This document shows positions 19,936 to 50,461 of a stretch of DNA of 64,000 bases, piece by piece. The stretch spans positions 248,001-312,000 of the forward strand of contig NZ_FOVF01000001.1 of NCBI RefSeq assembly GCF_900115085.1. The letters are read 5' to 3'. Numbering within the stretch: position 1 is the stretch's first letter; every line of letters starts with the position of its first letter. The notes under the pieces are model-generated. The model saw only the letters and a list, made by a program, of their open reading frames with translations. It was not told the DNA's origin and did no database searches. The DNA is from Dokdonella immobilis (GTDB taxonomy: Bacteria > Pseudomonadota > Gammaproteobacteria > Xanthomonadales > Rhodanobacteraceae). The translations under genes and the position numbers were made by a program.

Positions 19936-21255
19936 GTGTCTACCACGGAGAAAGGCCACACGTTTCCGGTACGTTCGGCTGACAAGCTCGATCGGTTCGC
20001 CCGGGCATTTCTGATGCTCTGTCTCGCCCATGGCGGGAGCGCCCTGGCCAACGACGTACCGGTCGCCGATACCAATGCGCTGATTGCGGCGATCAACTCC
20101 GCGATGCCCGGCGACCGCATCCTCGTCGCCGCCGGCACCTATCCGGTCAACGTCAACCTGAACTGCATGGCGGCCGGCACGGCGGCCCAGCCGATCGAGG
20201 TGCGTGCGGTTACGCCCCGCTCGGTCCTGATACGCTTCGCCAACGCCAGCGGCGCAACCGAGGGCTTCAAGGTCAGCGCACCGCACTGGCATTTCGAAGG
20301 ACTCGATATCGAAGGCGCCTGCGTCGACGACTCGGATTGCGAACACGCCTTCCACCTCACCGGCAATGCCGACTTCACGATCCTGCGCAACAACCGGGTC
20401 CGCGACTTCAATGCGCAGCTGAAGAGCAACACGGCATCGCCCGGGAGCGGACTGTTTCCGGATGATGTGCTGATCGAGCGCAATGTCTTCTACGACACGC
20501 GCGGCCGCAACACCTCCAATCCGGTGACCAAGCTCGACGTGGTCGGCGGCCGACGCTGGATCGTGCGCGCGAACACGATCCACGACTACCAGAAGCTCGG
20601 TGGCGACACGGTCAGCTACGCGGCCTTCCTCAAGGGCAACTCGCGCGACGGTCTGTTCGAGCGCAACCTGGTCATCTGCCAGCGCGATTTCACCGGCGGC
20701 GTGCGTCTTGGGCTCAGCTTCGGCGGTGGCGGCAGTTCGCCGGGCGGCATCTGCGAAGACGGCACCTGCACCCCGGAACACCAGAACGGAGTCATGCGCA
20801 ACAACCTGATCCTGCATTGTCCCGACGTCGGCATCTATCTGAACAGCGCAAGCGCAACACGCGTCGAACACAACACGCTGTTCGACACGAGCGGCATCGA
20901 CGTGCGATTTGCCGCCACTACTGCGGATGTCCGCAACAACCTGCTTAGTGGCCAGATCCGCAATCGCGACGGCGGCAGCAGTACCCAGCAGGGCAATCTC
21001 TCGCAAGTGGCCCTGGCCAGTTTCAGCACGTGGTTTGTGGATCCCGCGCAGGCGGACTTCCGACTCGTCGACGGCACGGCCTTCGTCGACCAGGGCGTTG
21101 CCGCGCCCCAGGTACTGGACGATTTCTGCGGCAACGACCGCAATGATGGCGCGCGCGACATCGGCGCGCTCGAATATGACGCGGATTTCGCCTGCATCAC
21201 GACCGCCGGTGGCGGCCTCGAGGAATCCATCTTTGCGGACGGATTCGACCCCTGA
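19936..21255 (+). CDS. Secreted right-handed parallel beta-helix protein with C-terminal IFADGFDP tail
   Basis: The 439-residue product has a signal peptide (AFLMLCLAHGGSALA, after a 22-residue N-terminal extension from a GTG start at 19936). A parallel beta-helix follows, of the type found in polysaccharide lyases and choice-of-anchor proteins: DTNALIAAINSAMPGDRILVAAGTYPV, then repeated short rungs (DFTILRNNRVRDF, DVLIERNVFYDT, GVMRNNLILHCPDVGIYLNSASATRVEHNTLFD). It ends DNRNDGARDIGALEYD, a family closing motif, then GGGLEESIFADGFDP and stop. The shape suggests carbohydrate binding or cleavage, but catalytic residues cannot be assigned. The IFADGFD tail recurs in other secreted proteins of this window. 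Confidence 0.82.
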   Translation: MSTTEKGHTFPVRSADKLDRFARAFLMLCLAHGGSALANDVPVADTNALIAAINSAMPGDRILVAAGTYPVNVNLNCMAAGTAAQPIEVRAVTPRSVLIRFANASGATEGFKVSAPHWHFEGLDIEGACVDDSDCEHAFHLTGNADFTILRNNRVRDFNAQLKSNTASPGSGLFPDDVLIERNVFYDTRGRNTSNPVTKLDVVGGRRWIVRANTIHDYQKLGGDTVSYAAFLKGNSRDGLFERNLVICQRDFTGGVRLGLSFGGGGSSPGGICEDGTCTPEHQNGVMRNNLILHCPDVGIYLNSASATRVEHNTLFDTSGIDVRFAATTADVRNNLLSGQIRNRDGGSSTQQGNLSQVALASFSTWFVDPAQADFRLVDGTAFVDQGVAAPQVLDDFCGNDRNDGARDIGALEYDADFACITTAGGGLEESIFADGFDP

Positions 21256-21348
21256 TCCCCGCCCTGGCATATTCGACCCGGGCCGGATCGCTCCGGTCCC
21301 GGGTCGCAGTGGCATGGCCCGGGACGCGGCGGCCCCGTGCCCGAACGG

Positions 21349-23649
<2,301 letters not shown>

Positions 23650-25884: not shown

Positions 25885-27633
25885 TCAGGTCGTCTGCCGG
25901 ACCAGCGACTGAAGCCGGGACTCGAGCGACGCGACGAACCCCGATTCATCGCGCAGCGGCGACGTTTCCATCCGGGCGCGAAGCCCCTCGCGAAAACCTA
26001 GCAGGCGTTGCGGATCGCGACACAAGGCGGTAGCAATGCGGACATAGGCTTCGCCGTCATTCCCGATCAATTCGGTGGCGCCGAGTCCCTCCAGCACGCT
26101 GGCAACCATGCGTCCGGCATGCGTATTCCCGCGCAGGGTGACCACCGGGACCCCCGACCACAGCGCACAGCAGGCAATCGTGTGGCCGCTCCAGGGAAAG
26201 ACATCGAGCAGGATATCGATGTCGGAAAATATCCGGAAAAAGCTTTGCCCCGGATTGGACAGATGAACCAACTGCAACCGCTCGGCAGCGATACCCAGTT
26301 CGCCGAATGCGACTTCGAGACGCCGCTGGTGCCAGTGGTCAAGCTGATCCCTCGCCAGCAGCAGGCGACTGCCGGGATTTTCCCTGAGGATCCGCGCCCA
26401 GCTGGAAATGACGCGGGCATTCACCTTTTCCAGCTTGTGCAGGCTGCCAAAGGTGACGAAGCCATTGCGCGACAGCGGAGCGGGCTCGACGTCCGGTGCA
26501 TGGGACGGCGGCCGAAAGCATGCGAAGCCATGCACGAGCCGCAGCAGGTGTTCGGTTCCCATGGGCATTTCGCCATCGGGCGCCGTGCAGCCGTCCACGA
26601 TTCGATAGTCCATGGCAGAAAGGCCAGTCGTGTTCGGATAGCCGAGATAGCTGATCTGGCAACGTGCGGGCCGGGCGGCGAAAACGCCGAGGCGACCATG
26701 CTCGGTGTGGCCAGCGAGATCGACCAGGATATCGATCCGGTCCGAACGGATCAGCGATGCAACGGCTTCATCGGATTCTCCGCGCACGTCGCGCCATTTC
26801 GAGGCAAGACCCTGGAGCCGGGCCGTGACCCCGTCGGCGTGGGGCACATCGGAATAACAGAAAACCTCGAACCGATCGGTATCGTGGTGGGCCAGCAATG
26901 GTTCGAAAAAACAGTTCACCGCATGCGCGCGGAAATCGCCCGAAACATAGCCGATGCGAAGCCTCGCGCCCGGTTCGGGCCATGCCGTCGCTGCGCGAAC
27001 CTGACCGAACAGTCCATTGGCGACGCAGCCGTGTTCTTCGGCAACGTCGGCTGGATCCAGATCCGGCAACAGGTTCAACACGTAGAGGAGGCTGTTGGCC
27101 GCGGCACGATAGGTGGGCCGAAGCGCGAGCGCGCTTCGAAACGACTGCACGGAGTCGGCAAGCCGCACCTGGTCGAGTTCGAGCATGCCGCGGTTGAACC
27201 AGGCCTCCGGCCACTCGGGATCGAGTCGTGTCGCTTCGCGGCTATGGACGATCGCCTTTTCGTGTTCGCCCGCTGCCGAAAGAACCACGCCCAGATTCAT
27301 GTGCGCTCCGGCGTAATCGGCGCGCAGTTTCAGTGCCTGCTGCAATTGCTCGGCGGCTGCGGTCAGATCGCCGGCCTTGTGCAGGGCATCGCCGAGGTTA
27401 TTGCGCAGGACAGGCTGTTCGGGCACCCGTTCGACCGCCTGCCGGATATAGGCGACGGCGGTGGCATGATCGCCCTGCTGATGGCAGGCCAGACCGAACA
27501 GGTGCAGGGCGTCGGGATTTCCCGGCTGCGATTTCAGGACTTCGCGGTAGAGCGCTTTCGCTTCTTCGAGATTGCCGGCCCGATGATGTTGCGTGGCCCG
27601 GCCCATCATTTGCTGCAGGGATGCGGCGCTCAT
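25885..27633 (-). CDS. TPR-containing SPINDLY/OGT-type (GT41) glycosyltransferase
   Basis: This 582-residue protein has about six TPRs (residues 5-200; NLEEAKALYREVLKSQPGNPDALHLFGLACHQQGDHATA and following) and a C-terminal GT41 domain like eukaryotic OGT and SPINDLY. Family features include LRIGYVSGDFRAHAVNCFFEPLLAHHD, RIDILVDLAGHTEHGRLGVFAARPARCQISYLGYPNTTGLSAMDYRIVD, NGFVTFGSLHKLEKVNARVISSWARIL and DILLDVFPWSGHTIACCALWSGVPVVTLRG. Bacterial members transfer GlcNAc or other sugars to proteins or adhesins. It is divergent from the 1298-residue secreted protein at 28003, with about 370 bp between them; whether it glycosylates that protein is only a guess. Confidence 0.92.
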   Translation of the reverse strand: MSAASLQQMMGRATQHHRAGNLEEAKALYREVLKSQPGNPDALHLFGLACHQQGDHATAVAYIRQAVERVPEQPVLRNNLGDALHKAGDLTAAAEQLQQALKLRADYAGAHMNLGVVLSAAGEHEKAIVHSREATRLDPEWPEAWFNRGMLELDQVRLADSVQSFRSALALRPTYRAAANSLLYVLNLLPDLDPADVAEEHGCVANGLFGQVRAATAWPEPGARLRIGYVSGDFRAHAVNCFFEPLLAHHDTDRFEVFCYSDVPHADGVTARLQGLASKWRDVRGESDEAVASLIRSDRIDILVDLAGHTEHGRLGVFAARPARCQISYLGYPNTTGLSAMDYRIVDGCTAPDGEMPMGTEHLLRLVHGFACFRPPSHAPDVEPAPLSRNGFVTFGSLHKLEKVNARVISSWARILRENPGSRLLLARDQLDHWHQRRLEVAFGELGIAAERLQLVHLSNPGQSFFRIFSDIDILLDVFPWSGHTIACCALWSGVPVVTLRGNTHAGRMVASVLEGLGATELIGNDGEAYVRIATALCRDPQRLLGFREGLRARMETSPLRDESGFVASLESRLQSLVRQTT

Positions 27634-28002
27634 GGACGGTCGAAGGAACCTCTGCAGGACTGGAATGCGAATCCGGACAGTTTAGCCGACTCCTGCCGCA
27701 GCGGTGGATGCGTCCTCGGCTCCTTTCACGGCACGGCCAACTGCAAAGGGGGCGCGGTGGGCGCATTGCAGGCGTCATCGCAGCTGGACGACGTCGCGCA
27801 CGCACCCGGCCGCGCCCGCGAAAGGCGCGCGACGACCAGAGTCGCGGGGGAAAATCACCCAGCGTTGAATTCGCAAGGTGATTCCGCGGGACACTGCCTC
27901 CGAGTTCCGAGGTCCGGGTCGCCGACCCCATCGCCCCATTTCGATTTATCCACGGGTGCAACGCGATCCGGCTGTTGCTGGCAATCATCGAGGAATCCGG
28001 TC
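27634..28002. other. Divergent promoter region between the GT41 gene and the giant secreted protein
   Basis: These 369 bp separate two divergent genes and should contain both promoters. A GAGGAA ribosome site sits 7 nt before the ATG at 28003. No hairpin, repeat or small gene was recognised. The open frames that cross the region have unnatural amino-acid composition. Confidence 0.5.
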
Positions 28003-31000
28003 ATGTCCCGCACCCATCGCGCCTTCCTCATCGCAGGCGGCCCGAATCGACGCAACGAACGTCGCATCGGCGCATTGACGCTCTCTGCGCTGCTGGCGTT
28101 CCTGCCGATTGAGTCGGCGTGGGCTCAATGGAGCACCGAGAGTCCGCTGCCGACCCACTTGGACATACACGGTGTAGCGGCACCCGCGCCGGATAGGATC
28201 TACCTTGCGACCGACGATGACTCGTTCGACGACGGCGGCGCCCTGTTCGAATCCATCGACGGCGGCGCCACATGGACCCAGCGCAACATCCCGGCCAGCC
28301 TCGGCGACAGCCTGTATGGAATCCACTTCCTCGACAGCCAGCGCGGCTGGACCTGGGGCAACAGCAACTACCGCACGATCGATGGCGGTGCGACCTGGGA
28401 ACCGCTTCCACTTCTCGGCTCGACCTATTCGATGACTTTTTTCTCTCCCGACTTCGGGGTCGCGACCGGAAACTTCGGCAGCCAGACAAGCCGCGATGGC
28501 GGGTTGACCTGGGAAGCGTCTCCGCAAGACATCACGACCTACTCGTTCGTCGACGCACAGACCGGCCTCGGTGCGTCCGCGACCGGCCTCTACCGGACCA
28601 CGGATGGTGGCGGGACATTCGCCCCTGTATTCACTGGCGCCGCGGATTCGGTCGCCTTCCTCTCACCGACGGTCGCCATTGCGGTGGTCGATGGAGCGTT
28701 CGTACGCTCGACCAATGCCGGCGTAACCTGGTCGGTCGGCGCCAATGCCGAGGGTCGCACGCAACTGTTCGTCGTCTCTGAAGACGTTGTGCTGGCCTCG
28801 GGCCGCAGCGGCACGTTTCCAGACTACGACGACCGCCTGTTTCGCTCGGCCGATGGCGGTCAGACCTGGACCGATCTCGGTGAAGCGATTCCTGCCGACG
28901 CATTCGCCGCTGCACCGGCATTCAGCATGGCAGGTGCCTCGGCTGTGATTGCGTCCAACGGCACCGGCGATCTCTATCGATCCAGCAACGCAGGCCTCGA
29001 CTGGACCCGGGTGTATGCGACGCCCGGGCCGCGGCCGGGCTTCCTCGACAGCGGCGCGCCGGTGTTTGTCGATGCCCAGACCGGTTACTTCGGTTTCGGC
29101 GCCGGGTTCATCCTCAAGACGACCGATGCCGGCGCCAGCTGGATGCAGATTTCCAGCGGCACGGGCCACGGCATTCTCGCGCTCGATCGCTTCCCCAATG
29201 GCGACCTGATTGCAGTCTGCGAGGGCGGTCGCGTTCTGACCCGCGCTTCCGATGATGCGACCTGGCGCATTCGGACCACGCTCGGCACCGCCGATCTCGA
29301 AGATGTCCAGGTTGTCGGGCCACAAGCCGCCGTGGCCGTGGACCAGCAAGGCATCGTCTACCGCAGCACCGACGCCGGCGCCTCGTGGACGGCCGCTATT
29401 TCCGCGCCCGTCGATCTGACCGCAGCAGACCTCCATTTCGAGACGCCGACCCAGGGCTGGGTCGTCGGCCAGGGATTCGGCAGTGCGGCCCTTTTCCATA
29501 CGCTCGACGGTGGTGACTTCTGGACGCCGGTCACCGACTTCCTGGGCACCTATGTCGCCGTCGACTTCGCCGGTGCGAACGGCTGGGCCGTGGCGAGCTA
29601 CGGCATCCTCCAGCGCACGTCCGACGCCGGTGCGTCCTGGACGGAAGTGCAACTCCCCGGCTCCGGGTTCTCCATCCGGGATATTGATTTCTGGGATACC
29701 GACACCGGCTATGTAGTCGGTGGATCCGGCTACGCCGCGCGCAGCGACGATGGTGGTGCAACCTGGCATACGCTGCCGGTGCCGGAAAGCAGCGCCGACC
29801 TGACCCACATCGCGCTGGTCGGTGCGAACGAGCTCTGGGTCTCGACGGCCGACGGCAAGCTCCTGTACTCGGCAACCGGTGGCGCGAACTGGGCCGTCAT
29901 GGACTCCGGCGGCATCAGCTTCGGCTCCTTCGGAAGTCTCGCCGCCAGCCCCGCAGGCGATGCCTGGATCGGTGGTTGGCGAGGCGTGATTCGTCACTTT
30001 TCCGGACCGCCCGGTCCACCGGTCAACCAGCCGCCGCAGGCGTCGTTCAATTACCTGACGACCGGTCTCTCGGTCGCCCTGACCGATACCAGCGTGGACA
30101 ATGACGGCACCATCGCGAGCTGGCTGTGGGATTTCGGCGATGGCACAACGTCAGTCGAACAGAACCCGATGCACGCGTTCGCGTCCGCCGACTCCTACCT
30201 CGTGCGCCTCACCGTCACCGATGACGACGGCGCTACCGATTCGACGCTGCGCGTCATCGTCGTGCAACCGGGACCGGGCGGCATCTTCGGCGACTTCGTC
30301 GAAGTCACCCCGCTCGACCCGCTGTTCGTCACGCCGCAGGACGAGGACTTCTGGGTTACTTCGGCCGCGCCGGCCGACGTCGACGGCGACGGCGATCTCG
30401 ACATCGTCGTACTCGGCTACTACGTGGTCTACAACGTGAGTGCGGTCGACCAGCTGGTCCTGTTGCGCAATGACGGACCTCTGAGCGAGACGCAGTGGAA
30501 CTTCAGCTACGTCGAGCTGCCGCTGGGAACCCTGACTGCCGGCGCATCGGATCTCGCCTGGGGTGACGTCGACGGCGATGGCGATCCCGATCTCGTCGCC
30601 GGCAGCGATGGCCAGACCGTGCTGTACAGAAACGACGCCGGAACCCTCGTCCCGACGAATACGGCCCTACCCGGCTACTGGGAAGACAACGGTCAGTCCG
30701 ACTTCGACCTCAATTCCATATCCTGGGCCGACTACGACAACGACGGCGACCTCGACCTGTTGCTGCCGTCGGTCTGGGACGAGACGACGTTCACATCGCA
30801 TACCGCGCTGATGCGGAACGACGGCGCCAACGGCAGCGGCGGATGGACCTTCAGCGAAGTCGATGCGGGTCTCGGCGAATCCGACCACGTGCAGACGAGC
30901 TGGGCCGACTTCGACGGTGACCAGGACCTCGACCTGCTGGTCGTGCATCTCGCCCCGCTGAGCGGTCGTGGTTACATCCGGCGCTTCCGCAACGAAGGCA

Positions 31001-31899
31001 ATGGCGTATTCGTCGGCGAGGACATCCTCGGCACGCTCAGTGTCGAGCACGGCGAGGCGCAATGGGGCGACTACGACAACGACGGCGATCTCGACATCCT
31101 CGTTGCCGGCAACGTCCGCGAAACCGACGGCACCTATGACACCGTCCTTCGCGTCTATCGAAACGAGGCGGAGACCTTCGTTCCGATCGAGATCATCGCC
31201 TGCGTCATGTGCGAGGGTTGGTTCGATCTGAGCGCGGCGACCTGGGCCGATTACGACTCGGATGGCGACATCGACATCCTGCTCGCCGGAACCTACAACT
31301 CGGGCACGCAAATCGAGGGGCGGGCCAAGGTCTATGACAACGTCAACGGCAACTTCGTCGACTCCGGCAACCAGTTGCCGGCACCGCGCGCCTCGGGATT
31401 CAGTGGCGGCTCTTTCAGCTGGCTGGACATCGATGGCGAAGGCGACCTCGACTATTTCATCGCCGGCTCCTACTTCGTACCGGGCGGCAATGGCCTGATC
31501 GAGACCCAGATGCATCTTTACGTCAACAGCGCGCCGGGACAGAACCTGCCGCCTTCGGCCGCCACCTCGCTGACCTCACAGGTCAATGCCGATGGCACCG
31601 TATCACTGACATGGGACGCCGCCAGCGACGACCTCACACCCGCCGGGGCGCTGACCTACGACCTGCGTCTCTACCGCAACGGTGCGCCAATCCAGGTCGC
31701 AAGGCGCATCCCCGAGTCCGGCAGCCTGCGCGGTGCCAGCGGCTGGACGCTGACCGGTCTGCCGGACGGTGGGTACCTCTGGACCATCGAGGCCATCGAC
31801 AGCGCGTACAACGGTGGACCGCCCACACCGGCAACGTTCCGCGTCGGCCCGCCCTTGCCGGACAGGATCTTCACCGACAGCTTCGACCTGCCTCGATAG
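28003..31899 (+). CDS. Giant secreted protein: YCF48-type propeller, PKD, FG-GAP repeats, Fn3-like domain, IFTDSFD tail
   Basis: The 1298-residue product has a signal peptide (LTLSALLAFLPIESAWA). Residues about 45-665 form YCF48/BNR-like propeller blades with the pattern SxDGGxTW repeated many times (for example FESIDGGATWTQ, YRTIDGGATWEP, KTTDAGASWMQ). A PKD domain follows at 677-755 (ASFNYLTTGLSVALTDTSVD). Then come seven or so FG-GAP/VCBS calcium motifs from residue 792 to 1150 (DVDGDGDLDIVV, DYDNDGDLDLLL, DFDGDQDLDLLV, DYDSDGDIDILL). An Fn3-like domain (1183-1282) and the tail DRIFTDSFDLPR end it. The frame is open back to 26008, but that part lacks coding character; the RBS and signal peptide support 28003. 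A role in adhesion or sensing is inferred. Confidence 0.88.
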   Translation: MSRTHRAFLIAGGPNRRNERRIGALTLSALLAFLPIESAWAQWSTESPLPTHLDIHGVAAPAPDRIYLATDDDSFDDGGALFESIDGGATWTQRNIPASLGDSLYGIHFLDSQRGWTWGNSNYRTIDGGATWEPLPLLGSTYSMTFFSPDFGVATGNFGSQTSRDGGLTWEASPQDITTYSFVDAQTGLGASATGLYRTTDGGGTFAPVFTGAADSVAFLSPTVAIAVVDGAFVRSTNAGVTWSVGANAEGRTQLFVVSEDVVLASGRSGTFPDYDDRLFRSADGGQTWTDLGEAIPADAFAAAPAFSMAGASAVIASNGTGDLYRSSNAGLDWTRVYATPGPRPGFLDSGAPVFVDAQTGYFGFGAGFILKTTDAGASWMQISSGTGHGILALDRFPNGDLIAVCEGGRVLTRASDDATWRIRTTLGTADLEDVQVVGPQAAVAVDQQGIVYRSTDAGASWTAAISAPVDLTAADLHFETPTQGWVVGQGFGSAALFHTLDGGDFWTPVTDFLGTYVAVDFAGANGWAVASYGILQRTSDAGASWTEVQLPGSGFSIRDIDFWDTDTGYVVGGSGYAARSDDGGATWHTLPVPESSADLTHIALVGANELWVSTADGKLLYSATGGANWAVMDSGGISFGSFGSLAASPAGDAWIGGWRGVIRHFSGPPGPPVNQPPQASFNYLTTGLSVALTDTSVDNDGTIASWLWDFGDGTTSVEQNPMHAFASADSYLVRLTVTDDDGATDSTLRVIVVQPGPGGIFGDFVEVTPLDPLFVTPQDEDFWVTSAAPADVDGDGDLDIVVLGYYVVYNVSAVDQLVLLRNDGPLSETQWNFSYVELPLGTLTAGASDLAWGDVDGDGDPDLVAGSDGQTVLYRNDAGTLVPTNTALPGYWEDNGQSDFDLNSISWADYDNDGDLDLLLPSVWDETTFTSHTALMRNDGANGSGGWTFSEVDAGLGESDHVQTSWADFDGDQDLDLLVVHLAPLSGRGYIRRFRNEGNGVFVGEDILGTLSVEHGEAQWGDYDNDGDLDILVAGNVRETDGTYDTVLRVYRNEAETFVPIEIIACVMCEGWFDLSAATWADYDSDGDIDILLAGTYNSGTQIEGRAKVYDNVNGNFVDSGNQLPAPRASGFSGGSFSWLDIDGEGDLDYFIAGSYFVPGGNGLIETQMHLYVNSAPGQNLPPSAATSLTSQVNADGTVSLTWDAASDDLTPAGALTYDLRLYRNGAPIQVARRIPESGSLRGASGWTLTGLPDGGYLWTIEAIDSAYNGGPPTPATFRVGPPLPDRIFTDSFDLPR

Positions 31900-38742: not shown

Positions 38743-41700
38743 CTACCAGCGCAGGATCACATCACCGGAACCCGCCACCTTCCACGCACCCTGCAACCAC
38801 TCACCGTCGAGGTACCGGTTGAGCTGCAGTTCGATCGTGGCGCCATGCTGGCGTGCGTTGACCACGAGCAGCGCGTCGCTGCCGGGTGCCGCGGTCGTCT
38901 TGAGAATCTGCACGGGGTTGTTCTGACCCGCGCCCCTGAGACGCGACTCGATCTGCGCACGGCCCAGATGCGCGGCATGCTTCTCGAAAGCCACGACCAT
39001 CACCGCCGATTCGAAGCCGTCGGCAAATATCAGGTCGCCAGAAGACTCGACCGCGCCGACATCGCAGGCTTGCGCAGGATTGCCATTGACCACGATACCG
39101 CGCGGGTTGCCGGTCTGGTCGATTCCGCTGCAACCATTGAAGCGATCGATCAGCGGCGAATCAGCGAATGGCAGGTGGGTCAGGGTCAGGCCACCGTTGT
39201 CCGCAAGCGGACCAAGGCGCGGATCGATCACACCGGCGCCGAGCGGATCACCGATCAAGTTGTTGTTGACGTCCGGGGTACCGATCGGCGCGCCGGCCAG
39301 ACCCGAGCCTGTGTTGTCTCCAACGAGGCTGTTCACCAGGCCGAACGTGGGAACTTCGCTGCGGATATCTCGCGCAGGGCTGGCCGAGGAATCCGAATTG
39401 CGCGCAAGAACGGTCGCGGAGACATTCAGGCTACCGCTGCCGCTGGAGAACAATCCGCCACCCGCCGGCGCAGGGCTGGACGCGCCGGTGCCTGCAGCGT
39501 TATCGATGATGCTGCTGCCCTCGATGCTGACCACCGAAGTCGCATCCACGGAGACATGGACACCGCCGCCGAGACGCAAGCTGCTGTTCCCAGACACAGT
39601 TGAATCGAGCAATGAGAGCTCGGCATTGTTCGAACCCGCGAGATACAGTCCACCGCTGCTCTGCCTCGACGAGTTGCCCGAAACTGTCATGCGTGAGAGG
39701 GTGACCGTGGCCTGGTCGGCGCTGATGAAGGCGCCGCCGCCACGAGTATTCGCAGTCAGCCCGCCCGGATCGCCGGCGGCCTGATTACCCGAGAGGGTCA
39801 GTTCCGAGATTGAAGATGAACCCGAGGTCTGGGACAGATACAAGCCGCCTCCGCGGGCAGTGGAACTCGGTCCTGACGGCACATCTGCGCCAATGTTGTC
39901 CAGGATGCGCAGTCTGGAAAGATCGGTGACACCAGCACTGGCTTCGACGTACAGACCGGCTCCGCGACAATCGCTGCAGCGCAGGCTGTTTCCGGAAAAT
40001 ACCGAGTCATGAACATCCAGGCTGGTACCCTGAAGCAGTAGCGCAAGGCCGCCACCTCTCGAACTTCCGACATTGCCCTGAAATTCCGTATCGGCAATCT
40101 CGACGACGCTTCCGCTTCCGGCCTGGATCTCGGCACCGGCGGAGACATTCGCCTGATTTGAATTGAATGTGGCATTGCTCAAGGAAAAAGTAGAACTTCC
40201 CGGGGCTGCAGAGAAAAGCGCACCGCCGGTATTATTGGCCGAATTCGAACTGAAGGAGATCGAATCGATCACCAGGTTTTCCCGATTCCTGAGTGCTCCG
40301 CCCGATTCCGATCCACTGACCGATCCGCCGATCAAGCTCATGCCCGACAACGCAACATCGAGGAGGCTCGCGTCGATGCCATCGTCGATCAGAAAATGCC
40401 GCGATGCCGAGTGGGCATCCAGGATAAGCAACGACTGGCCGGGACCGATGATCGTTACCGGCGAGGCCACGAGGATCTGGCCCTTCGTCAATGTATTGGT
40501 TTGCGTGCTGGCAAAGACGCCCGCATCGAACGTGATCACCGATACATCCGGATCGCCGTTGGCGGCCATCACGGCGTCGCGCAAGGTACACTCGCCGACC
40601 GCCGCACCGCAGAAGCCGTCGCCAAGGTCGTCGTTGGCATTGACGACAAAGTCGGCACCCGCCTGCCCCGATTCCTGCACCTCGACCGCGCCGATATCAC
40701 AAGCCGCACCGAAGGGACGCGATTCGCCGCGCTGATCCGTGCCACTGCACCCGGAGAAATGATCGATCGCCGGAGAACCGGGCAAGGGCAGGTGGGTCGG
40801 CGTCGACCCGCCGTGGTCACCGAGCGCACCGAGCCTGGGCCCGACCGACAACAAGGTGTTCGACACGGTATTGAGGGTGGCAGTGCCAGGATCCTCGATC
40901 AGCGAATCCGCAACAACGAAAGTGCCTTTCAGATCCGCGCCACTGCTGTTGGCAACGATTGTGCCCATCAGGCTACCCGAGTTCGCATCGACCCCGGAGA
41001 CCAGGCTGGTATTACCAGTGATCGTGCTGTTGGCCAGCGCCAGCGAGCCGCCCTTCGAGAGAATGGCGCCCCCGCTGCCGCTGCCGGTGGTCACGCCATT
41101 GCCGCTGATCGTGCTGTTGATGACGGTCGCGGCATTGTCGCGCGTGTACAGGCCGCCTCCTTTGAACGCCGCCGTATTTCCGGACAACGTGCTGTCGATC
41201 AAGGTCACGTCGCGGAAGCGCGACCAGATTGCGCCGCCATCGGCCGCGGTCGTGTTGCCGACCAGATGGACCTGGTCCAGCGCGAGCTCGGCGACGCTGC
41301 GGATCGCTCCGCCGCGGCCGCCGGGATCAGGCGCGCTGCCGTCGCCATTGCCTCCGGTCAGGGTCAGGCCACTGATCGCGTTGACGCTGTCCAGTGCGGA
41401 GTTTGGCGACGCCAGATCGGCGAAGTGGAATATCCGCGATTGTCCACCGGCATCGATGGTCAGCTGGCTGGCGCCCGGTCCACTGATAGTCGTAGACGAT
41501 TTCACCGCCAGCTCACCGTTACTCAGGGTAAGCGTGCCGGGCGTCGCGAACACGGTCGGATCGAACGTGATGACCGATGCGTCGGAATTGCTCTCGGCGG
41601 CAAGCACCGCATCGCGCAAGGTGCATTCACCGACTGCAACACCGCAGGATCCATTGCCGGCATCGTCCGCGGCATTGACCACGAAATCCGGACCGCCCTG

Positions 41701-41811
41701 CACGATCCCCGAATGTTGCGGAGCCGCGACACCGCCTGTGGTCGAGGCATGGGCGGCCTGTAGCATCAACAACTGGCTGATGGTCGCAGCAAGGAGGGGT
41801 TTGCGCGGCAT
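38743..41811 (-). CDS. Large secreted tandem CSLREA-type beta-helix protein with internal IFADGFE motif and extra C-terminal tail
   Basis: The 1022-residue product has a signal peptide (LLAATISQLLMLQAAHA). It then has two homologous halves, each starting with FVVNAADDAGNGSCG...GECTLRDAVLAA or FVVNANDDLGDGFCG...GECTLRDAVMAA, the CSLREA-domain signature, followed by a beta-helix of repeated rungs (TLIDSTLSGNTAAFKGGGLYTRD, TVSGNSSRQSSGGLYLAG). Each half closes with a choice-of-anchor-Q-like segment (HLPLPGSPAIDHFSGCSGTDQRGESRPFGAACDIGAVEV). The second half ends GDLIFADGFES at 39010-39030. Then 88 more residues follow (AVMVVAFEKHAAHLG... to ...SGDVILRW), unlike the other tail-bearing proteins. 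The ATG at 41811 has GGGGAA upstream. Confidence 0.88.
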   Translation of the reverse strand: MPRKPLLAATISQLLMLQAAHASTTGGVAAPQHSGIVQGGPDFVVNAADDAGNGSCGVAVGECTLRDAVLAAESNSDASVITFDPTVFATPGTLTLSNGELAVKSSTTISGPGASQLTIDAGGQSRIFHFADLASPNSALDSVNAISGLTLTGGNGDGSAPDPGGRGGAIRSVAELALDQVHLVGNTTAADGGAIWSRFRDVTLIDSTLSGNTAAFKGGGLYTRDNAATVINSTISGNGVTTGSGSGGAILSKGGSLALANSTITGNTSLVSGVDANSGSLMGTIVANSSGADLKGTFVVADSLIEDPGTATLNTVSNTLLSVGPRLGALGDHGGSTPTHLPLPGSPAIDHFSGCSGTDQRGESRPFGAACDIGAVEVQESGQAGADFVVNANDDLGDGFCGAAVGECTLRDAVMAANGDPDVSVITFDAGVFASTQTNTLTKGQILVASPVTIIGPGQSLLILDAHSASRHFLIDDGIDASLLDVALSGMSLIGGSVSGSESGGALRNRENLVIDSISFSSNSANNTGGALFSAAPGSSTFSLSNATFNSNQANVSAGAEIQAGSGSVVEIADTEFQGNVGSSRGGGLALLLQGTSLDVHDSVFSGNSLRCSDCRGAGLYVEASAGVTDLSRLRILDNIGADVPSGPSSTARGGGLYLSQTSGSSSISELTLSGNQAAGDPGGLTANTRGGGAFISADQATVTLSRMTVSGNSSRQSSGGLYLAGSNNAELSLLDSTVSGNSSLRLGGGVHVSVDATSVVSIEGSSIIDNAAGTGASSPAPAGGGLFSSGSGSLNVSATVLARNSDSSASPARDIRSEVPTFGLVNSLVGDNTGSGLAGAPIGTPDVNNNLIGDPLGAGVIDPRLGPLADNGGLTLTHLPFADSPLIDRFNGCSGIDQTGNPRGIVVNGNPAQACDVGAVESSGDLIFADGFESAVMVVAFEKHAAHLGRAQIESRLRGAGQNNPVQILKTTAAPGSDALLVVNARQHGATIELQLNRYLDGEWLQGAWKVAGSGDVILRW

Positions 41812-42318
41812 TGGGTTCCCCGGATTCTGGTCCGCTTTCAAACGAACCGCAGGTTTACTTCTGGACCGATGCGCAATGCTACACCATGCCAGAGATCCGA
41901 CCAAAGCATGCATTTACGAACAAGTTTTCTTGTGGACACAGGCAGCGGTTTTATGCCGCTTGCGCGATGCACGCGCCACCTCACCGATGGCCGAAGGGCC
42001 ACGCCATTCGCCAGTGACCACGCAGATTCGCCCATGATTCCGACTGCGCACCCTTGGTACGGCAGCGGCGGCCGCTCGTCGCAGCTGCGGTTCCAGGCCC
42101 GTGCCGCTCGGGTCCGACTGGGCGCGCCGGTCGGCTATCGTGTGCCATCGGTCGGCCACCGGGCAGACAGGGTCGTTTGCGCATTGACCGTGCTCGTCGT
42201 GCCGCTCACGCTCGAATGCGCCAGCGAAGCAGACGGCACGCAACGACGGGAGCGCGGTCGCGGCCAGTCCCTCGCCTGCTGGCAGCGCGTTGCCTGCACC
42301 GCTGGAGGACAAAGTCCC
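41812..42318. other. Divergent intergenic region between two secreted-protein genes
   Basis: These 507 bp separate the beta-helix gene (minus) from the SGNH gene (plus). The plus frame is open back to 41869, but that part has no natural composition, no ribosome site and no signal peptide at its start. Both promoters must be here. Nothing further was recognised. Confidence 0.5.
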
Positions 42319-43818
42319 ATGTCAATGGACATATCGGCTCCTTGCACCGGATACGCGGCGAGCGCGCGCACGCTGGCAACAGCGATCCTCTGCTTGATTG
42401 CGAGCTGCGCTTCGGCGCAGACCTTGCCGCTGTCGGACCGCGATATCGACAACCCGACGCACTGGTATCTCGGCATTGGCGAACCTGGACTCTATCCAGG
42501 CGGTGCCAATCTGCCTGGTGGCGCTCATCTGGCATACGGCCTGAACCGGACGAATGCGATACGCCCGCTGGGGTCGGCGTTGCTGCCCTCATCGGCGCCG
42601 GCGATTGGTTTTGTTGCCGTCGGCATGTCGAATGCCAATCAGGAATGGGGACGCTTTGCCTGGCTCGCTGCGAATGGCGCCCGGCACAACGCCCGCGTGG
42701 TCCTGGTCGATGCGGCCCAGGGCGGCATCGATGCCACGGAAATGGATGAGCCCGGCGAGCCCTATTGGAACTTCTTCGATCAGCGCGTCGCCGCGGCAGG
42801 CCTGGGCCTCGACCAGGTCCAGGCGGTCTGGCTCAAGCAATCCATCCAGGGTGGCGCAGGTGTCTTTCCGACAGGCGCCGCTACTTTGCAGCAAAGTCTG
42901 GCTGGCATCGTCGATGTGCTGCAGGCGCACTGCCCGAATCTTCAGGTGATTCTGCTTTCCTCGAGGATCTGGGGCGCCGGCGAACCGTGGAATTTCGAGA
43001 CCGCATTCGCGGTGAAGGACCTGATCAGGAGTCAGGTCGATGCGATCTCCGCGGGGACCGAATCCCGGCCGTGGCTGGCGTGGGGCCCCTATCTCTGGGC
43101 CGACGGACTGAGCCCGCGTTCGGACGGCCTGTTCTGGGATCCTGCCCTGCATCTCGAAGCTGACCTCACCCATCCCTCGGCCGGCGGCGAACAACAAGTC
43201 GCCGACCGGCTCGATGCCTACCTTGCCACCCAGTATGCGTTCGCCCGCTGGCTGTTTCCTGCAGGCGGCGCCGCACCGATCACACGGACTGCCAGCGCCG
43301 ATGCGCATGTCGACAACACCCAACCGAACACAAATTTCGGTGCTGATCCGGCCCTTCGATGGGCGACTGGCACACGCATCTATCTGCGCTTCGATCTGAG
43401 CGGTCTCGCAGCGGGGCTTTTCGAGCGTGTCCGCCTGGTCTATCGCGTGGAGTCGACGCCAAACGGCGCTGGTGCGGGATTTGCCTATCTGGCCAGCCCG
43501 GGCGCCTGGAGCGAAGCGACACTGAACTGGGCCAACGCACCGGCACCTGGCACCTTGATCCGCAGCATTCCCTCAACCAGCCGCGGTGGCGTCGTCGATC
43601 TCGACGTCACGGCCGCAACGCAGGCAGCCTTGCTGGCGGGAAGCACCTCGATCAGCCTGGTCCTGGTACCTCCTGCAAAGGTGGGCTTCCCGGGCGCCGT
43701 GCTTTCTCGCGAATCGGGCGAGTCCCCAGTCCTTCTACTTTCGGGTCCGACGCTTTTCGTCGACGGGTTCGAGCAGGGGCTGGGCTCGATCCGATCATCC
43801 GGCCCGTCTGCGGACTAG
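42319..43818 (+). CDS. Secreted SGNH-like hydrolase with DNRLRE domain and LFVDGFE motif near the C-terminus
   Basis: The 499-residue product has a signal peptide (LATAILCLIASCASAQ). The N-terminal half looks like an SGNH hydrolase (AIGFVAVGMSNANQEWGRFA, PCPNLQVILLSSRIWG-like HCPNLQVILLSSRIWGAGEPW, and DLTHPSAGGEQQVA with the D-x2-H of the catalytic block). The C-terminal half is a DNRLRE-type domain (ASADAHVDNTQPNTNFGADPALRW). It closes with LFVDGFE at 43753-43773 and 14 more residues. Likely an esterase acting on carbohydrate or a surface ligand. A GGAGGA ribosome site lies 9 nt before the ATG. The stop overlaps the convergent oxidoreductase stop by 4 bp at CTAG. Confidence 0.82.
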   Translation: MSMDISAPCTGYAASARTLATAILCLIASCASAQTLPLSDRDIDNPTHWYLGIGEPGLYPGGANLPGGAHLAYGLNRTNAIRPLGSALLPSSAPAIGFVAVGMSNANQEWGRFAWLAANGARHNARVVLVDAAQGGIDATEMDEPGEPYWNFFDQRVAAAGLGLDQVQAVWLKQSIQGGAGVFPTGAATLQQSLAGIVDVLQAHCPNLQVILLSSRIWGAGEPWNFETAFAVKDLIRSQVDAISAGTESRPWLAWGPYLWADGLSPRSDGLFWDPALHLEADLTHPSAGGEQQVADRLDAYLATQYAFARWLFPAGGAAPITRTASADAHVDNTQPNTNFGADPALRWATGTRIYLRFDLSGLAAGLFERVRLVYRVESTPNGAGAGFAYLASPGAWSEATLNWANAPAPGTLIRSIPSTSRGGVVDLDVTAATQAALLAGSTSISLVLVPPAKVGFPGAVLSRESGESPVLLLSGPTLFVDGFEQGLGSIRSSGPSAD

Positions 43819-46300: not shown

Positions 46301-46316
46301 ATGACGCCAATCATAT
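46299..46316. promoter_or_regulatory. TetR-family operator, site 2
   Basis: The half-sites ATATGA (46299-46304) and TCATAT (46311-46316) have the same six-base spacing as site 1, but the centre is not palindromic (CGCCAA). The site includes the start codon of the TetR gene, fitting autoregulation. Confidence 0.7.
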
Positions 46317-46603: not shown

Positions 46604-47329
46604 TCAGCCGGCAGCAGGCTGGCTGCCGAGGGCCTTGATGAAGGCGCGGATGCGCTTGGCGTTCTTGCCGACGTCGCTCAAGCCGACGCGTGAAACCGAG
46701 CGCACGTCGATCCGGCTGCCGGCTGCTTCGGGTTCGACGCGAATGACGATGTCGTCCTTGAAGCCATACCAGAACGTGGTGTCGGTTGCTTCCAGGCGGC
46801 CCGCCGTGGCGTCGGCGGCGACGATCTCCCAGCCCATGTCGCGTGCGACCTGTTCAACCTTGTTGAAGGCATCGGTCGGGGCGGCGTCGAGATGCTGGGT
46901 GCGGATGTCGGGGTAGGCCTCGGCCTGCTTGGCGGCGATTTCGGGTCCGCCGTATTCGGCCGGATTGGCGGCGTTGGCGCGCAGCGGCAATACCGCGACG
47001 AACTCCGGTGGGCGCTGGGTGTCGGTGGTGATGTCGTGGATCATCGGCAGGGATTTCGCTTGCGACAGCCCATACAGGGGCATGGCCGATGCGGCGAGGC
47101 CGAGGATCAATCCAAAGGCCAATGTGCCGGCATTGCCGCGACGGGTTCGCGGAATGACCAGGAACAGCAGGGCCAGCACGCCGGCACCGAGGCCGAGATA
47201 GACGGCCCAGCGCATCATCGAAAAGCCGGTGCGGAATTCCCACCAGCCGAGGCGGCTGCCCGGCCCGGACGCGATCAGGAGCACCAGGGCAATGATCGCC
47301 AACAGAACGGGTATGCGTGACAGCTTCAT
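46604..47329 (-). CDS. DUF1499 domain membrane protein
   Basis: The 241-residue protein has three hydrophobic segments (PVLLAIIALVLLIASG, WAVYLGLGAGVLALLFLVIP, LAFGLILGLAASAMPLYGL) and a soluble C-terminal DUF1499 domain with the repeated family pattern YPDIRTQHLDAAPTDAFNKVEQVARDMGWEIVAADATAGRLEATDTTFWYGFKDDIVIRVEPEAAGSRIDVRSVSRVGLSDVGKNAKRIRAFI. The role of this domain is unknown. The gene stands alone and has a normal start. Confidence 0.9.
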   Translation of the reverse strand: MKLSRIPVLLAIIALVLLIASGPGSRLGWWEFRTGFSMMRWAVYLGLGAGVLALLFLVIPRTRRGNAGTLAFGLILGLAASAMPLYGLSQAKSLPMIHDITTDTQRPPEFVAVLPLRANAANPAEYGGPEIAAKQAEAYPDIRTQHLDAAPTDAFNKVEQVARDMGWEIVAADATAGRLEATDTTFWYGFKDDIVIRVEPEAAGSRIDVRSVSRVGLSDVGKNAKRIRAFIKALGSQPAAG

Positions 47330-47659
47330 TCGGATCGTCTCGGTTCGCCGGGCAGTGCCCAGTATCGCGCAATTTGATGGTTGGCGAGCGCATGGCCGAC
47401 GAGCAAGCGCGCGGCGTTTACACGAGAAGCGCTGGGTGGCTCAGCAATCCACTGGCTGATGAGGCTGGCGAAAGGACGGCTTCGGCAGTGCCTGGGCTAT
47501 ACGCCTTCGGGAGATCAAGCAGTGCGTGGCGGTTGCGGAAAAGTCACTGGGTCCCGGCCTGCGCCGGGACGACGGTGAGGGGGAATGCGGCGGAGTGTCC
47601 GCTGCGCCGGGTTGGTGGTGCGCCGGGTCCCCGGCGCAGGTTCCGATCGTGGCGGCAGC
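47330..47659. other. Intergenic region with two GC-rich palindromes
   Basis: Two strong inverted repeats lie here: GTCCCGGC-CTGC-GCCGGGAC (47551-47570) and GCGCCGGG-TC-CCCGGCGC (47620-47637). The first resembles the CTGGGTCCCGGCCTGCGCCGGGAC type of dispersed intergenic palindrome seen in several proteobacteria. The second lies 23 bp beyond the msrA stop and could aid transcript end formation, but it has no T run. No gene is convincing. Confidence 0.5.
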
Positions 47660-48316
47660 TCAGTGGTCCGAGCTGCCCCAGATCTGTTCGAGTCGCGCAT
47701 CGCGGCCGCAGTTGTAGCGGTAGAACTTGTAGCGCAGTGGATTCTTCTTGTAGTAGTCCTGGTGGTAGCCCTCGGCGGGATAAAACGTCGAAGCGGGCAC
47801 GATCTGGGTGACGACCGGCTGGCTGAATTTTCCGGAGGCCTCGAGTTCGCGCTTGCTCTCTTCGGCCAGGCGCTGCTGTTCGGACGTGGTCGTGAAGATC
47901 GCGGTGCGGTACTGGTCGCCGTGGTCGCAGAACTGCTGGTCGATCGCGAACGGATCGACGTTGTGCCAGTACACGTCGAGCAGCTTTTTGTAGTCGACCC
48001 GGGTCGGATCGAATACCACCTTGACCGACTCGGCATGACCGGTGCCACCGGCGGACACCTGCTCATAGGTCGGATCGGGGGCCAGCCCGCCGGTGTAGCC
48101 CGAGGTCGTCGAGAGGACGCCGGGCACCTTGTCGAACGGCGGCTCCATGCACCAGAAGCAGCCGCCGGCGAAGATGGCCACTTCGGTCCGTCCGGCCGCA
48201 GGGGGGGCCGCGGACGGCTCGTCGGTCGGGCCCGCGCAGGCACCCATTGCCGCCATCAGCAACACCAGGCCAAGGCCGGTGAAGCGTGAAATCAATCGAT
48301 TCTTCAGGGTGTTCAT
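47660..48316 (-). CDS. msrA: Peptide methionine-S-sulfoxide reductase MsrA, predicted lipoprotein
   Basis: MsrA reduces the S-form of methionine sulfoxide in proteins. The 218-residue protein has a type II signal-like N-terminus (GLVLLMAAMGACAGP, lipid cysteine C27, slightly unusual -3 residue) and then the catalytic domain with GGCFWCMEP (nucleophile C53) and the family segments SGYTGG, HAESVKVVFDPTRVDYKKLLDVYWHNVDPF and GHAESV. The ATG at 48316 is 2 bp after the msrB stop, with GAGGAG upstream. Together the two lipoproteins would repair periplasmic proteins, a job done by MsrPQ in many Gram-negatives. Confidence 0.94.
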   Translation of the reverse strand: MNTLKNRLISRFTGLGLVLLMAAMGACAGPTDEPSAAPPAAGRTEVAIFAGGCFWCMEPPFDKVPGVLSTTSGYTGGLAPDPTYEQVSAGGTGHAESVKVVFDPTRVDYKKLLDVYWHNVDPFAIDQQFCDHGDQYRTAIFTTTSEQQRLAEESKRELEASGKFSQPVVTQIVPASTFYPAEGYHQDYYKKNPLRYKFYRYNCGRDARLEQIWGSSDH

Positions 48317-48318
48317 GA

Positions 48319-48843
48319 TCAACTCCTCAGGGCTGGCAGGGCTTGTCCGTTCGGCACGAATTCCAGGGCCAGCCCGTTGTTGCACCAGCGCTCACCGCGC
48401 GGTCGCGGGCCGTCGTTGAAGACGTGGCCCTGATGGCCGCCGCAGCGGGCACAGTGATATTCGGTGCGAGGCCAGACCAGCTTGAAATCACGCCTGGTCT
48501 CGACATGGCCGGCGATCGGCTGGGTAAAGCTCGGCCAGCCGGTACCGCTGTCGAACTTGTTGGTGCTGTCGAAGAGCGGCAGTCGGCAGGCGGCGCAGAC
48601 AAAGGTGCCCTCGCGCTTCTCGTCGTTGAGCGGACTGCTGAATGCGCGCTCGGTGTCTTCCTCGAACAATACGTCGTACGCAGCATCGCTGACCACACCG
48701 CGCCATTCCTCGTGCGGCTTGTTGAGCGGAACGACCTTGCCGGACGCAGGCGCCGTGCCGGAGTCGGCGGCATTCGAACAGGACGGCAGCAGCGGCAGGA
48801 CCACCAGCGCACCGAGATTGCGCAACACGGAACGACGATTCAT
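48319..48843 (-). CDS. msrB: Peptide methionine-R-sulfoxide reductase MsrB, predicted lipoprotein
   Basis: MsrB reduces the R-form of methionine sulfoxide. The 174-residue protein has a signal peptide with a possible lipid cysteine at C22 (PLLPSCSNA), then the MsrB fold with zinc cysteines CAAC and CARC, the substrate motif GTGWPSF and the catalytic C154 in RWCNNGLALEF. It is the first gene of the msrB-msrA operon. The ATG at 48843 has GGAGG 7 nt upstream; longer frames upstream have no such support. Confidence 0.95.
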   Translation of the reverse strand: MNRRSVLRNLGALVVLPLLPSCSNAADSGTAPASGKVVPLNKPHEEWRGVVSDAAYDVLFEEDTERAFSSPLNDEKREGTFVCAACRLPLFDSTNKFDSGTGWPSFTQPIAGHVETRRDFKLVWPRTEYHCARCGGHQGHVFNDGPRPRGERWCNNGLALEFVPNGQALPALRS

Positions 48844-49117
48844 GCAGGGACCTCCAAAACGGAATGGGTTGCTGGCGACGCATCGGCGCGATAACCGCCG
48901 CCGCGATGACATCGCCTGCGTTGCAGGAAAAAGCGCCGGAATCGGTGCGGTTATGGGCGGGAGGGAGCCGCACCGTTCCGGCAACAGACGCAGCCAGTCG
49001 GCCACGTGGTCACAGACCTAGACCGGACGATCGGAACTTTCATTGCATCGATCCATGGCAGGGCTTGCGCATACAATCCTGGTTACTTCCGACCCCTCCC
49101 CGGCCACAGGAGTTCAC
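48844..49117. promoter_or_regulatory. Divergent promoter region between msrB and the M28 peptidase gene
   Basis: This 274-bp region separates divergent genes. A possible -10 box TACAAT at 49072-49077 fits transcription of the plus-strand peptidase gene from about 49084. No clear -35 box or regulator site was found. Confidence 0.4.
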
Positions 49118-50461
49118 ATGCCCGTTATCGATGCACCGGTGCCGCCCGCGCAAATGCCCGCGCCGAGCGCGCTGGTCGTCGATATCGAATCGGCCGACCG
49201 TACTGAACTGGCAGCATGGAAACAGGCCCGGGGTGTTCGCTGGTGGCTCGAGATGGGCGACCGGCTCGTGGTGGTGGGAAATTCGGGGGAGCTGGGCACA
49301 TTCGATGCGGATGGCGCGGTGCGTGGCCGTATCGACGCCTTCCACATCGAGCGCATGCGCCTGCACGCGCGCGGCTGCCAGCGCGATACGACGACACCCG
49401 GGCGCATGATCGCGCAAGGTGGACGCTGGGAACTGCGCGAGTTCGACAGCGCCGAGAGCGCCCGCGCCGCGGCGGCAGCCGGCGAACACGAGGGCGAATG
49501 GCAATCCGTGCAGCCGAACAGCGTGATCGCGCATCGGGTGCGGCCGCAACCCGATGGCGCCGCGGCCGATCCCCTGATCGTGCCGCTGGTCGATGCGATC
49601 AATCCGGCCCGCTGGTTCGCCGATCTCGACAGCCTGACCCAATGGGACCGTTCCAGCTACGGGCCCGAACTGGCACTTTCTCGGGCCTGGATCGAAGGGC
49701 GCTTCAGCACCATCGGACTCGAGGTCAGCGCGCCGGCCTTCAGCATGCCAGGCAGCGGAGGTGGGCAGATCAACGTCAACAATGTGATCGGTCGCTGGAA
49801 CGGAACGCGGTTGCCCGACGAATGGATCATCGTTGGCGCCCATTACGATTCGCGCAATTCGAGCCTGTCCTCGACCACAAACACGCCGGGCGCGGAAGAC
49901 AACGCCTCGGGGTGCGCAGGCGTCATCGAGCTGGCCCGGGTCCTGGTTGCAAACCGGCCGCAACGCAGCATCCTGTTCATGTGCTATGCCGGCGAGGAAC
50001 AGGGCCTGTATGGAAGCAAGGCCCACGTGCAGGCGTTGCAGGCTTCCGGCGACCTGGCCAGGGTCCAGGCCGTGGTCACCATGGACATGATTGGGTACAG
50101 CGCCGACACGACGCTCGACGTGCTGTTCGAAAGTGGCGCGACCTGGAGTGCCTACCTGAACCAGTTTGCGGACGCGGCCGCGGCCTATGTACCCGAACTG
50201 CGCGTGACCCTGAGCACGAACCCTTTTGGCTCGGACCACGTACCGTATCTGAATGCAGGCAAGAAGACCCTGCTCGCGATCGAGAACGACTGGGACGTCT
50301 ACCCGTACTACCACCGCAGCACCGACACCAGCGATCACGTCGGTGCGAATGCGCAGGCCATGGGCGGGGCCATTCTCAGGACCAGTGTCGCCGTGCTGGC
50401 CGAGTTGGCCGGGGCTTCGGACCGGATCTTCGGCGATGGCGTTGATCCGCTTGCACCATGA
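49118..50461 (+). CDS. M28-family zinc aminopeptidase with IFGDGVD tail but no visible signal peptide
   Basis: The 447-residue protein has a C-terminal M28 peptidase domain. Its ligands are in GAHYDSRN, the D of AEDNASG, the double glutamate of AGEEQGLYGS, the D of TMDMIGYSAD and the H of SDHVPY. It has a 170-residue N-terminal region that could be a pro- or beta-domain. It ends DRIFGDGVDPLAP, a variant of the tail found in other secreted proteins here. The ATG at 49118 has AGGAG 6 nt upstream, and a -10-like box just before it supports this start. No signal peptide appears from this start or from the upstream starts at 49043 and 49055, which is odd for this enzyme type. Confidence 0.86.
   Translation: MPVIDAPVPPAQMPAPSALVVDIESADRTELAAWKQARGVRWWLEMGDRLVVVGNSGELGTFDADGAVRGRIDAFHIERMRLHARGCQRDTTTPGRMIAQGGRWELREFDSAESARAAAAAGEHEGEWQSVQPNSVIAHRVRPQPDGAAADPLIVPLVDAINPARWFADLDSLTQWDRSSYGPELALSRAWIEGRFSTIGLEVSAPAFSMPGSGGGQINVNNVIGRWNGTRLPDEWIIVGAHYDSRNSSLSSTTNTPGAEDNASGCAGVIELARVLVANRPQRSILFMCYAGEEQGLYGSKAHVQALQASGDLARVQAVVTMDMIGYSADTTLDVLFESGATWSAYLNQFADAAAAYVPELRVTLSTNPFGSDHVPYLNAGKKTLLAIENDWDVYPYYHRSTDTSDHVGANAQAMGGAILRTSVAVLAELAGASDRIFGDGVDPLAP

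Follow-up and report, generated by a model that had tools for sequence, protein, structure and literature searches.

Background

The signals of the type IX secretion system (T9SS; Por), found in Bacteroidota, are whole C-terminal domains that serve the outer-membrane passage or anchoring of unrelated proteins. PEP-CTERM/exosortase signals, which consist of a membrane helix and a basic tail besides the motif, occur in sporadic lineages, while GlyGly-CTERM is a tripartite signal, again with helix and basic tail, that is cut by a rhomboid protease (rhombosortase) and stands on cargo of the type II secretion system (T2SS) such as VesB. For T2SS cargo in general, no common linear sequence is known according to one recent account (PMC7949064), and no linear 'universal secretion signal' according to another (PMC12369372). 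Here we describe a C-terminal nonapeptide, D-x-[IL]-F-x-[DN]-[GS]-F-[DE] (the tag), which an earlier note, made from sequence alone, had picked up as a short motif on five proteins in a 64-kb stretch of the Dokdonella immobilis genome (contig NZ_FOVF01000001.1, positions 248,001 to 312,000; hereafter the window), and its co-occurrence with a second T2SS (T2SS-2) in the order Lysobacterales.

The tag resembles each of these systems in part. Like GlyGly-CTERM it is C-terminal on unrelated Sec-exported proteins in a similar choice-of-anchor context, like PEP-CTERM it is sporadic, has dozens of carriers per genome and suits phylogenetic profiling, and with the T9SS domains it shares a terminal position on unrelated proteins. 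However, it is a soluble element of nine residues, lying near the very end of proteins of Gammaproteobacteria. No helix plus basic tail of the tripartite CTERM (PEP-, GlyGly-, MYXO-) or LPXTG kind accompanies it, 57 of 66 collected tags ending within five residues of the stop codon, and no CTERM or LPXTG sorting-signal model of NCBIfam was matched by the five window proteins or stood among 25 of the 82 families matched by 65 carriers. The tag therefore does not show the hallmarks of those known C-terminal sorting signals that were tested, as had been argued in the earlier note for PEP-CTERM, GlyGly-CTERM, LPXTG and Por signals. The known determinants of T2SS cargo (loop 3 of PelI, the Ig fold of VesB and GspC PDZ determinants) are, like the tag as we picture it, short exposed or flexible elements of folded cargo for the GspC PDZ domain or GspD, but they are protein-specific and share no sequence, whereas here a single linear motif is found on dozens of proteins. 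Searches by motif strings gave no paper, and none of the papers listed by topic searches dealt with the tag, preprints and most subscription papers being beyond the reach of both.

A conserved nonapeptide at protein C-termini

In the D. immobilis genome (G000, 4.64 Mb) the core F-x-D-G-F-[D/E] has 43 matches compared to one for a reversed control, and a pattern admitting N/S variants has 51 compared to none. Forty of the 43 core matches lie within 32 residues of the stop codon, the remaining three being 72, 88 and 508 residues away. A relaxed motif, [ILVMF]F.[DNST][GSAN][FVLIY][DE], is present in the last 36 residues of 15 of the 553 proteins predicted from three contigs (C38, C49 and C52; 792 kb), a rate that is somewhat high since these contigs were picked for their size after the hit list was known and, with 17% of the genome, contain 11 of the 43 strict hits. 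Shuffling those 36 residues gave a mean of 0.024 matches and a maximum of one in 1000 runs, while the interior of the same proteins held three matches in 192,301 positions, ten times the number of C-terminal positions; this contrast between C-terminus and interior is unaffected by the choice of contigs.

The consensus comes from 66 proteins collected from 1.475 Mb that was partly chosen around hits, with tails limited to 45 residues, so that longer ones went uncounted. The search pattern restricted the residues at its last seven positions but not its upstream D, which is present in 49 of 66. The third position is I (50), L (12) or V (4), the fourth F throughout, the fifth A in 35, the sixth D (46), N (16) or S (4), the seventh G (58), S (7) or A (1), the eighth F in 64 and the ninth D (37) or E (29). 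Twenty-three of the proteins end exactly at the motif and the longest tails have 32 and 40 residues. Relative to the earlier note, with its five proteins, the 66 carriers and a consensus with the upstream D and with D/N/S at position 4 of the seven-residue motif are new, as are the restriction to one order and the co-occurrence with a second T2SS described below. Tag codons vary synonymously (TTC/TTT, GAC/GAT, all four GGN), which places the conservation at the protein level, and a DNA-level element at gene ends was rejected for this reason.

Some unusual arrangements were also seen. The strict motif 508 residues before the stop codon lies in a very long frame (L033; C56:4005, minus strand) and is either an uncommon internal tag or due to chance. 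One C-terminus carries IFLDGFE followed by IFKNGYD in tandem (L053, near 1501, minus strand), and in another genome of the order two tag matches stand 36 bases apart (G035:C1:871659-871720).

Carriers and their export signals

Aligned together, 65 carriers have a mean column identity of 6%, yet their consensus ends in DxIFADGFD. They match 79 Pfam families (E ≤ 0.001), those listed including subtilases, M28, M14 and M12B peptidases, GH44, dehydrogenases, MauG, endonuclease, propellers and beta-helices, and the different folds remarked on in the five window proteins are thus borne out on a larger scale. A small plastocyanin-like carrier of 153 residues aligns with solved plastocyanins up to residue 142–143, and its tag occupies residues 147–153; a search of the PDB with a tagged dehydrogenase was uninformative about the end of its domain. 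The shortness of the motif could be taken to favour an origin by chance, or else inheritance with a last domain that the carriers have in common, but matches in excess of shuffled sequence, reversed-pattern controls near zero, carriers as unrelated as these and a plastocyanin match that stops before the tag together make this explanation extremely improbable, and the tag is not the last strand of one common domain.

A crude signal-peptide score of at least 2.5 is reached by 59 of the 66 tagged proteins compared to 389 of 932 untagged ones (48 and 286 respectively at a score of at least 3.0). The motif is therefore not equally frequent on other proteins, and most carriers appear to have the N-terminal Sec or Tat signal required of T2SS cargo, one of them with a Tat-like start (RRDFLK). 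Under stricter automatic classes, carriers make up 42 of 176 soluble proteins with a signal, 9 of 243 transmembrane proteins, 5 of 56 proteins with a lipobox and 10 of 523 others (8/90, 4/128, 1/30 and 5/315 in the three contigs alone); those outside the soluble class mostly have ordinary signal peptides by eye, and no convincing lipobox was seen among them. Three carriers have no signal by eye (the window M28 peptidase, C52:17429 and C37:56338).

Choice-of-anchor families are matched by some of the 65 carriers (eight Q, five J and one B, E ≤ 0.01), others match rhombosortase-dependent (6) and myxosortase-dependent (4) M36 models, and one matches a MYXO-CTERM-anchored family. The name choice-of-anchor refers to the position where other lineages bear an anchor, so that in these carriers the tag stands where sorting signals are found elsewhere; it follows the choice-of-anchor Q domain in L074:14728-16284 and in the CSLREA protein of the window. 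These matches speak for surface retention, the main rival to the reading that we develop below, under which carriers would exit by T2SS-2 through some other means and the tag would then bind an outer-membrane protein or glycan, or undergo a covalent step. There is a parallel in GlyGly-CTERM, described in PMC12369372 as a C-terminal anchor on T2SS cargo. However, in most carriers the tag is followed by neither a membrane helix nor a basic tail or anchor domain, no candidate receptor was found, and there are individual carriers with matches to secreted-enzyme models (ExeM/NucH, and LapA far below the cut-off), and we consider surface retention unlikely.

Distribution among genomes

Tag counts range from 0 to 108 per genome among 200 genomes of the order and are patchy. 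Twenty-seven of 30 loci, one per genome, were judged to be convincing C-terminal tags and the other three (L051, L065 and L066) chance matches. Outside the order the top counts are 9 and 8, with controls of 4 and 2 (323 genomes of the class, 318 of them from outside the order), and none of 30 loci from there was C-terminal in an open reading frame (ORF) of at least 100 amino acids, the motif not being re-found in three of the 30; this too argues against chance as the source of the tags within the order. The strict pattern D-[RKHQNS]-I-F-A-D-G-F-[DE]-stop was found in 17 stretches across 84,980 species, all 17 in open frames ending there, which are labelled Dokdonella, Wenzhouxiangella, Pseudofulvimonas gallinarii, Pseudolysobacter, Rhodanobacteraceae, Lysobacteraceae or Lysobacterales and in one case only 'Proteobacteria bacterium'. 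Within this sampling, the tag is restricted to Lysobacterales.

Two genomes were dropped as tag genomes. In G056, six of eight loci lie more than 50 residues from the stop codon and two, at 19 and 21 residues, are without I/L, and all were judged chance (a ninth was left out of inspection); the sole locus of G018 looked like a chance frame.

Co-occurrence with a second type II secretion system

The earlier note had suggested looking for a secretion gene that co-occurs with the motif, and a second T2SS does so. GspG was first searched in 60 genomes, 30 chosen as tag-rich (G056 wrongly among them) and 30 as tag-poor; in all, GspG testing extended to all but 60 of the 200 order genomes. A canonical second GspG (at least 150 bits) is present in 27 of the 30 tag-rich and 5 of the 30 tag-poor genomes, and a second GspD is in broad agreement with both canonical GspG and tag. 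A divergent GspG copy (78–135 bits), listed in 57 of the 60, belongs to the other, Xps-type T2SS. Any T2SS as partner was rejected, since the GspG of the other system is also found in tag-poor genomes, and so was canonical GspG as sole marker, since it marks another T2SS in family f2 as well; for this reason GspC2 was used. A profile of 14 GspC2 sequences splits 80 genomes into 41 with a match at E ≤ 2e-40 and 39 with matches at E ≥ 4e-23 or none.

In these 80 genomes, which were chosen rather than drawn and are related by kinship, a tight tag pattern (one control match over all 80) and GspC2 occur together in 36 and are both missing in 35, with GspC2 only in five and the tag only in four (Fisher 1.2e-12, phylogeny ignored). 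The agreement is seen within families: in f1 six of seven genomes with GspC2 are tagged (46, 50, 45, 23, 83, 45 and 0 tags) and all 13 without it have none, and in f2 both genomes with GspC2 are tagged (10 and 7) and all 17 without it have none. In f8 the counts are 0, 10 and 14 with GspC2 and 6, 3, 1, 0, 0, 0 and 0 without. Within the set, all eight tagless f2 genomes with canonical GspG have either no GspC2 or only a distant match, while three tagged genomes (G016, G032 and G139) have GspC2 without canonical GspG. A tagged dehydrogenase family (E ≤ 1e-20) is present in 20 of 20 genomes with T2SS-2 and in none of 19 without (four of these classed by GspG only), plus G058.

Exosortase was also considered as a partner. 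Its association with the tag is weaker (26 genomes with both, 7 with exosortase only, 14 with the tag only and 33 with neither, p 3e-5), and PF09721 (E ≤ 1e-5) is absent in 8 of 24 genomes with at least five tags, among them G101 (83), G141 (45) and G011, a further difference from PEP-CTERM; it was rejected on both counts. This bears on the possibility that the tag is a processing site, at which a periplasmic or surface peptidase or transpeptidase would cut at or near D-G in the manner of a sortase, with no need of a membrane helix. Superficially the hF-x-D-G core may recall LPxTG and Asp-Gly cleavage sites, but the sortase/peptidase-type family searched, exosortase, tracks the tag less well than T2SS-2 does, a cut would remove few residues in most carriers, and 20 of 66 tags have N or S for D and eight have S or A for G, so that we regard processing as very unlikely. 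The exosortase-like matches themselves (G000:C49:226027-226464 and similar, in 33 of the 80 genomes) mostly cover the second half of PF09721. Their presence varies in part together with that of the tag, and they occur in three f8 genomes that have tags without GspC2 (G058, G088 and G133).

Organisation of T2SS-2 and features of GspC2

In D. immobilis T2SS-2 lies in two loci, with gspC, gspD and gspE beside rhlB, and a second run, including GspG and GspK, adjoining bioA/rsmE (rhlB, bioA and rsmE by eye). Pfam confirms GspC2, D2, E2, G2 and K2, and H and I were recognised by eye (F, J and M being outside this check); gspF and ftsEX follow gspCDE in G141 and G035, and L and N could be made out by eye in G141. 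The partial recurrence of this arrangement across families suggests an ancestral system that was lost in some lineages.

GspC2 has an N-terminal helix, an HR domain and a C-terminal PDZ domain. The Pfam model T2SSC matches both GspC2 proteins tested (G000 and G035), and the Pfam PDZ model passes its cut-off in G035 but falls short of it in G000 (23.5 compared to 27 bits). The PDZ part has profile matches to chains of OutC (6hcg), PulC (5hj1) and GspC (2i4s), and an AlphaFold2 model (mean pLDDT 73, pTM 0.35) predicts a helix at residues 17–50, HR strands and a PDZ-like end. For the other T2SS, no Pfam family matched the presumed GspC-like protein (L210:3932-4570).

Proposed role of the tag

We propose, with a probability of roughly one half, that the nonapeptide is a portable linear recognition tag on T2SS-2 cargo. 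Carriers would fold after passing the inner membrane by Sec or Tat, and the exposed, flexible tail would then dock on a periplasmic part of T2SS-2, the likeliest receptors being the PDZ domain of GspC2 or the N-domains of GspD2; docking would commit the carrier to export. The hydrophobic core with acidic ends, the usually terminal position past the last domain and the tolerance of short tails lead us to read the tag as an exposed docking peptide and as neither a cleavage nor a membrane signal, and since it is mostly found where T2SS-2 is, it may be an address label. We infer that carriers leave by T2SS-2, that the tag is necessary or sufficient for this, and what its receptor may be. The earlier idea, of a tag that in this lineage serves secretion, attachment to the outer membrane or processing, is partly supported, each of the three roles being compatible with the findings. 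There are partial precedents for docking: PDZ-dependent export is described for one T2SS substrate (PMC12369372), a nine-residue loop that interacts with GspC and GspD is the secretion signal of another (PMC7949064), and Xanthomonas XpsC is given a 2P domain, the PDZ fold being named for OutC and EpsC (PMC11981180).

Several observations weigh against recruitment by T2SS-2. The T2SSs of other bacteria function without such a tag. The Fisher value overstates the evidence, given the kinship of the genomes compared and the lack of a tree-based count of losses. G058, G088 and G133 have six, three and one tight tags without GspC2 or canonical GspG, the other T2SS being the only one present in them, and 11 of 22 loci inspected in them lie within seven residues of the stop codon in ORFs of at least 100 amino acids and look genuine. 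Conversely, GspC2 occurs without a tight tag in G180, G073, G009, G080 and G144 (looser counts 2, 3, 8, 0 and 3; the GspC2 match of G180 is the most divergent but one). Tails of one to five or more residues past the motif speak against classical binding of the carboxylate by a PDZ domain. Finally, tagged genes lie near 2 of 20 gspCDE loci (396 kb) and 1 of 20 gspG-type loci (389 kb), about what their density predicts, in a count that includes some loci of the other T2SS and of tag-poor genomes. Tagged genes do stand by gspCDE in L260 and L265, and variants in L259 and L265, but the argument from neighbourhood was dropped since there is no enrichment over the 40 loci. The fourth genome with tags only, G047 (a 90% complete assembly), has canonical GspG and no GspC2 match.

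The three f8 genomes that keep tags, and the lack of clustering with T2SS-2 genes, would be expected if the tag had a role apart from T2SS-2, such as a periplasmic chaperone or stability signal or a signal for another machine, and the two had been lost jointly in some lineages. There were probably few independent losses, and a whole dehydrogenase carrier family is missing along with T2SS-2, which a change of lifestyle could equally have brought about. However, the match between tag and T2SS-2 recurs in f1 and f2 and fits cargo exported by Sec or Tat, and such a separate role seems quite unlikely to us.

Carriers in the window

The relaxed motif has five matches in the six frames of the window, all of them tags at the coordinates and in the frames given in the earlier note; they span 21229–50446, an interval that does not bound the phenomenon. 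Four lie 1, 3, 14 and 4 residues from the stop codon (beta-helix, propeller, SGNH/DNRLRE and M28 proteins respectively) and the fifth, in the CSLREA protein, 88 residues from it. Signal peptides are seen by eye on all but the M28 peptidase, again in line with that note.

The beta-helix protein (PF13229; 19936–21255, plus strand) has a GTG start, and its tag IFADGFD (21229–21249) is followed by P and the stop codon. The BNR/PKD/FG-GAP propeller protein (28003–31899, plus strand) has its start set at the signal peptide MSRTHRAFLIAGG..., inside a longer ORF (26008–31899), and its tag IFTDSFD (31867–31887) is preceded by D-R and followed by LPR and the stop codon. The upstream part of this ORF is overlapped on the opposite strand by a tetratricopeptide repeat (TPR) protein (25885–27633, minus strand) that by eye resembles SPINDLY-type O-GlcNAc transferases. 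In the tandem CSLREA/choice-of-anchor Q protein (38743–41811, minus strand) the tag IFADGFE (39010–39030, preceded by D-L) comes shortly past the choice-of-anchor Q domain and is atypical in not being terminal, so that the tag can precede another segment; that segment, of about 86 residues (38743–39009, minus strand), has no relative among the other fetched loci. The DNRLRE (CBM96) protein (41869–43818, plus strand) is given as its longest ORF, with an internal signal-peptide start MSMDISAPC... by eye, and carries the tag LFVDGFE (43753–43773); its SGNH part has no Pfam match, this assignment being that of the earlier note.

The M28 peptidase (PF04389 by Pfam; 49043–50461, plus strand) carries a variant, IFGDGVD (50426–50446), preceded by D-R and followed by PLAP and the stop codon. 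It weakly matches the LapA model (71.9 bits compared to a cut-off of 600). Its alignment to solved relatives stops at residue 399 of 433, 18 residues before the end of the solved chain, and the tag, beginning at about residue 423, lies beyond the aligned part. No signal peptide was seen by eye, including in the frames just upstream, and a start-site or frameshift problem is possible. Elsewhere in the window, a pair of proteins that by eye resemble alpha-2-macroglobulin and penicillin-binding protein 1C lies at 55038–62693 (plus strand).

Implications

How a T2SS chooses its cargo is an open question. With a nonapeptide shared by dozens of proteins, and two T2SSs per cell, only one of which tracks the tag, the question becomes testable by tag swap. 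It is possible, though we put this forward tentatively and would sooner bet against it, that this is the first linear, portable T2SS signal, a C-terminal nonapeptide read in the periplasm by the GspC PDZ domain or GspD that alone routes dozens of structurally unrelated folded proteins through one of two T2SSs of a cell. The tag would help to predict secretomes across Lysobacterales and might give a transferable export tag, and if recruitment by T2SS-2 is true, it would represent a new class of T2SS signal.

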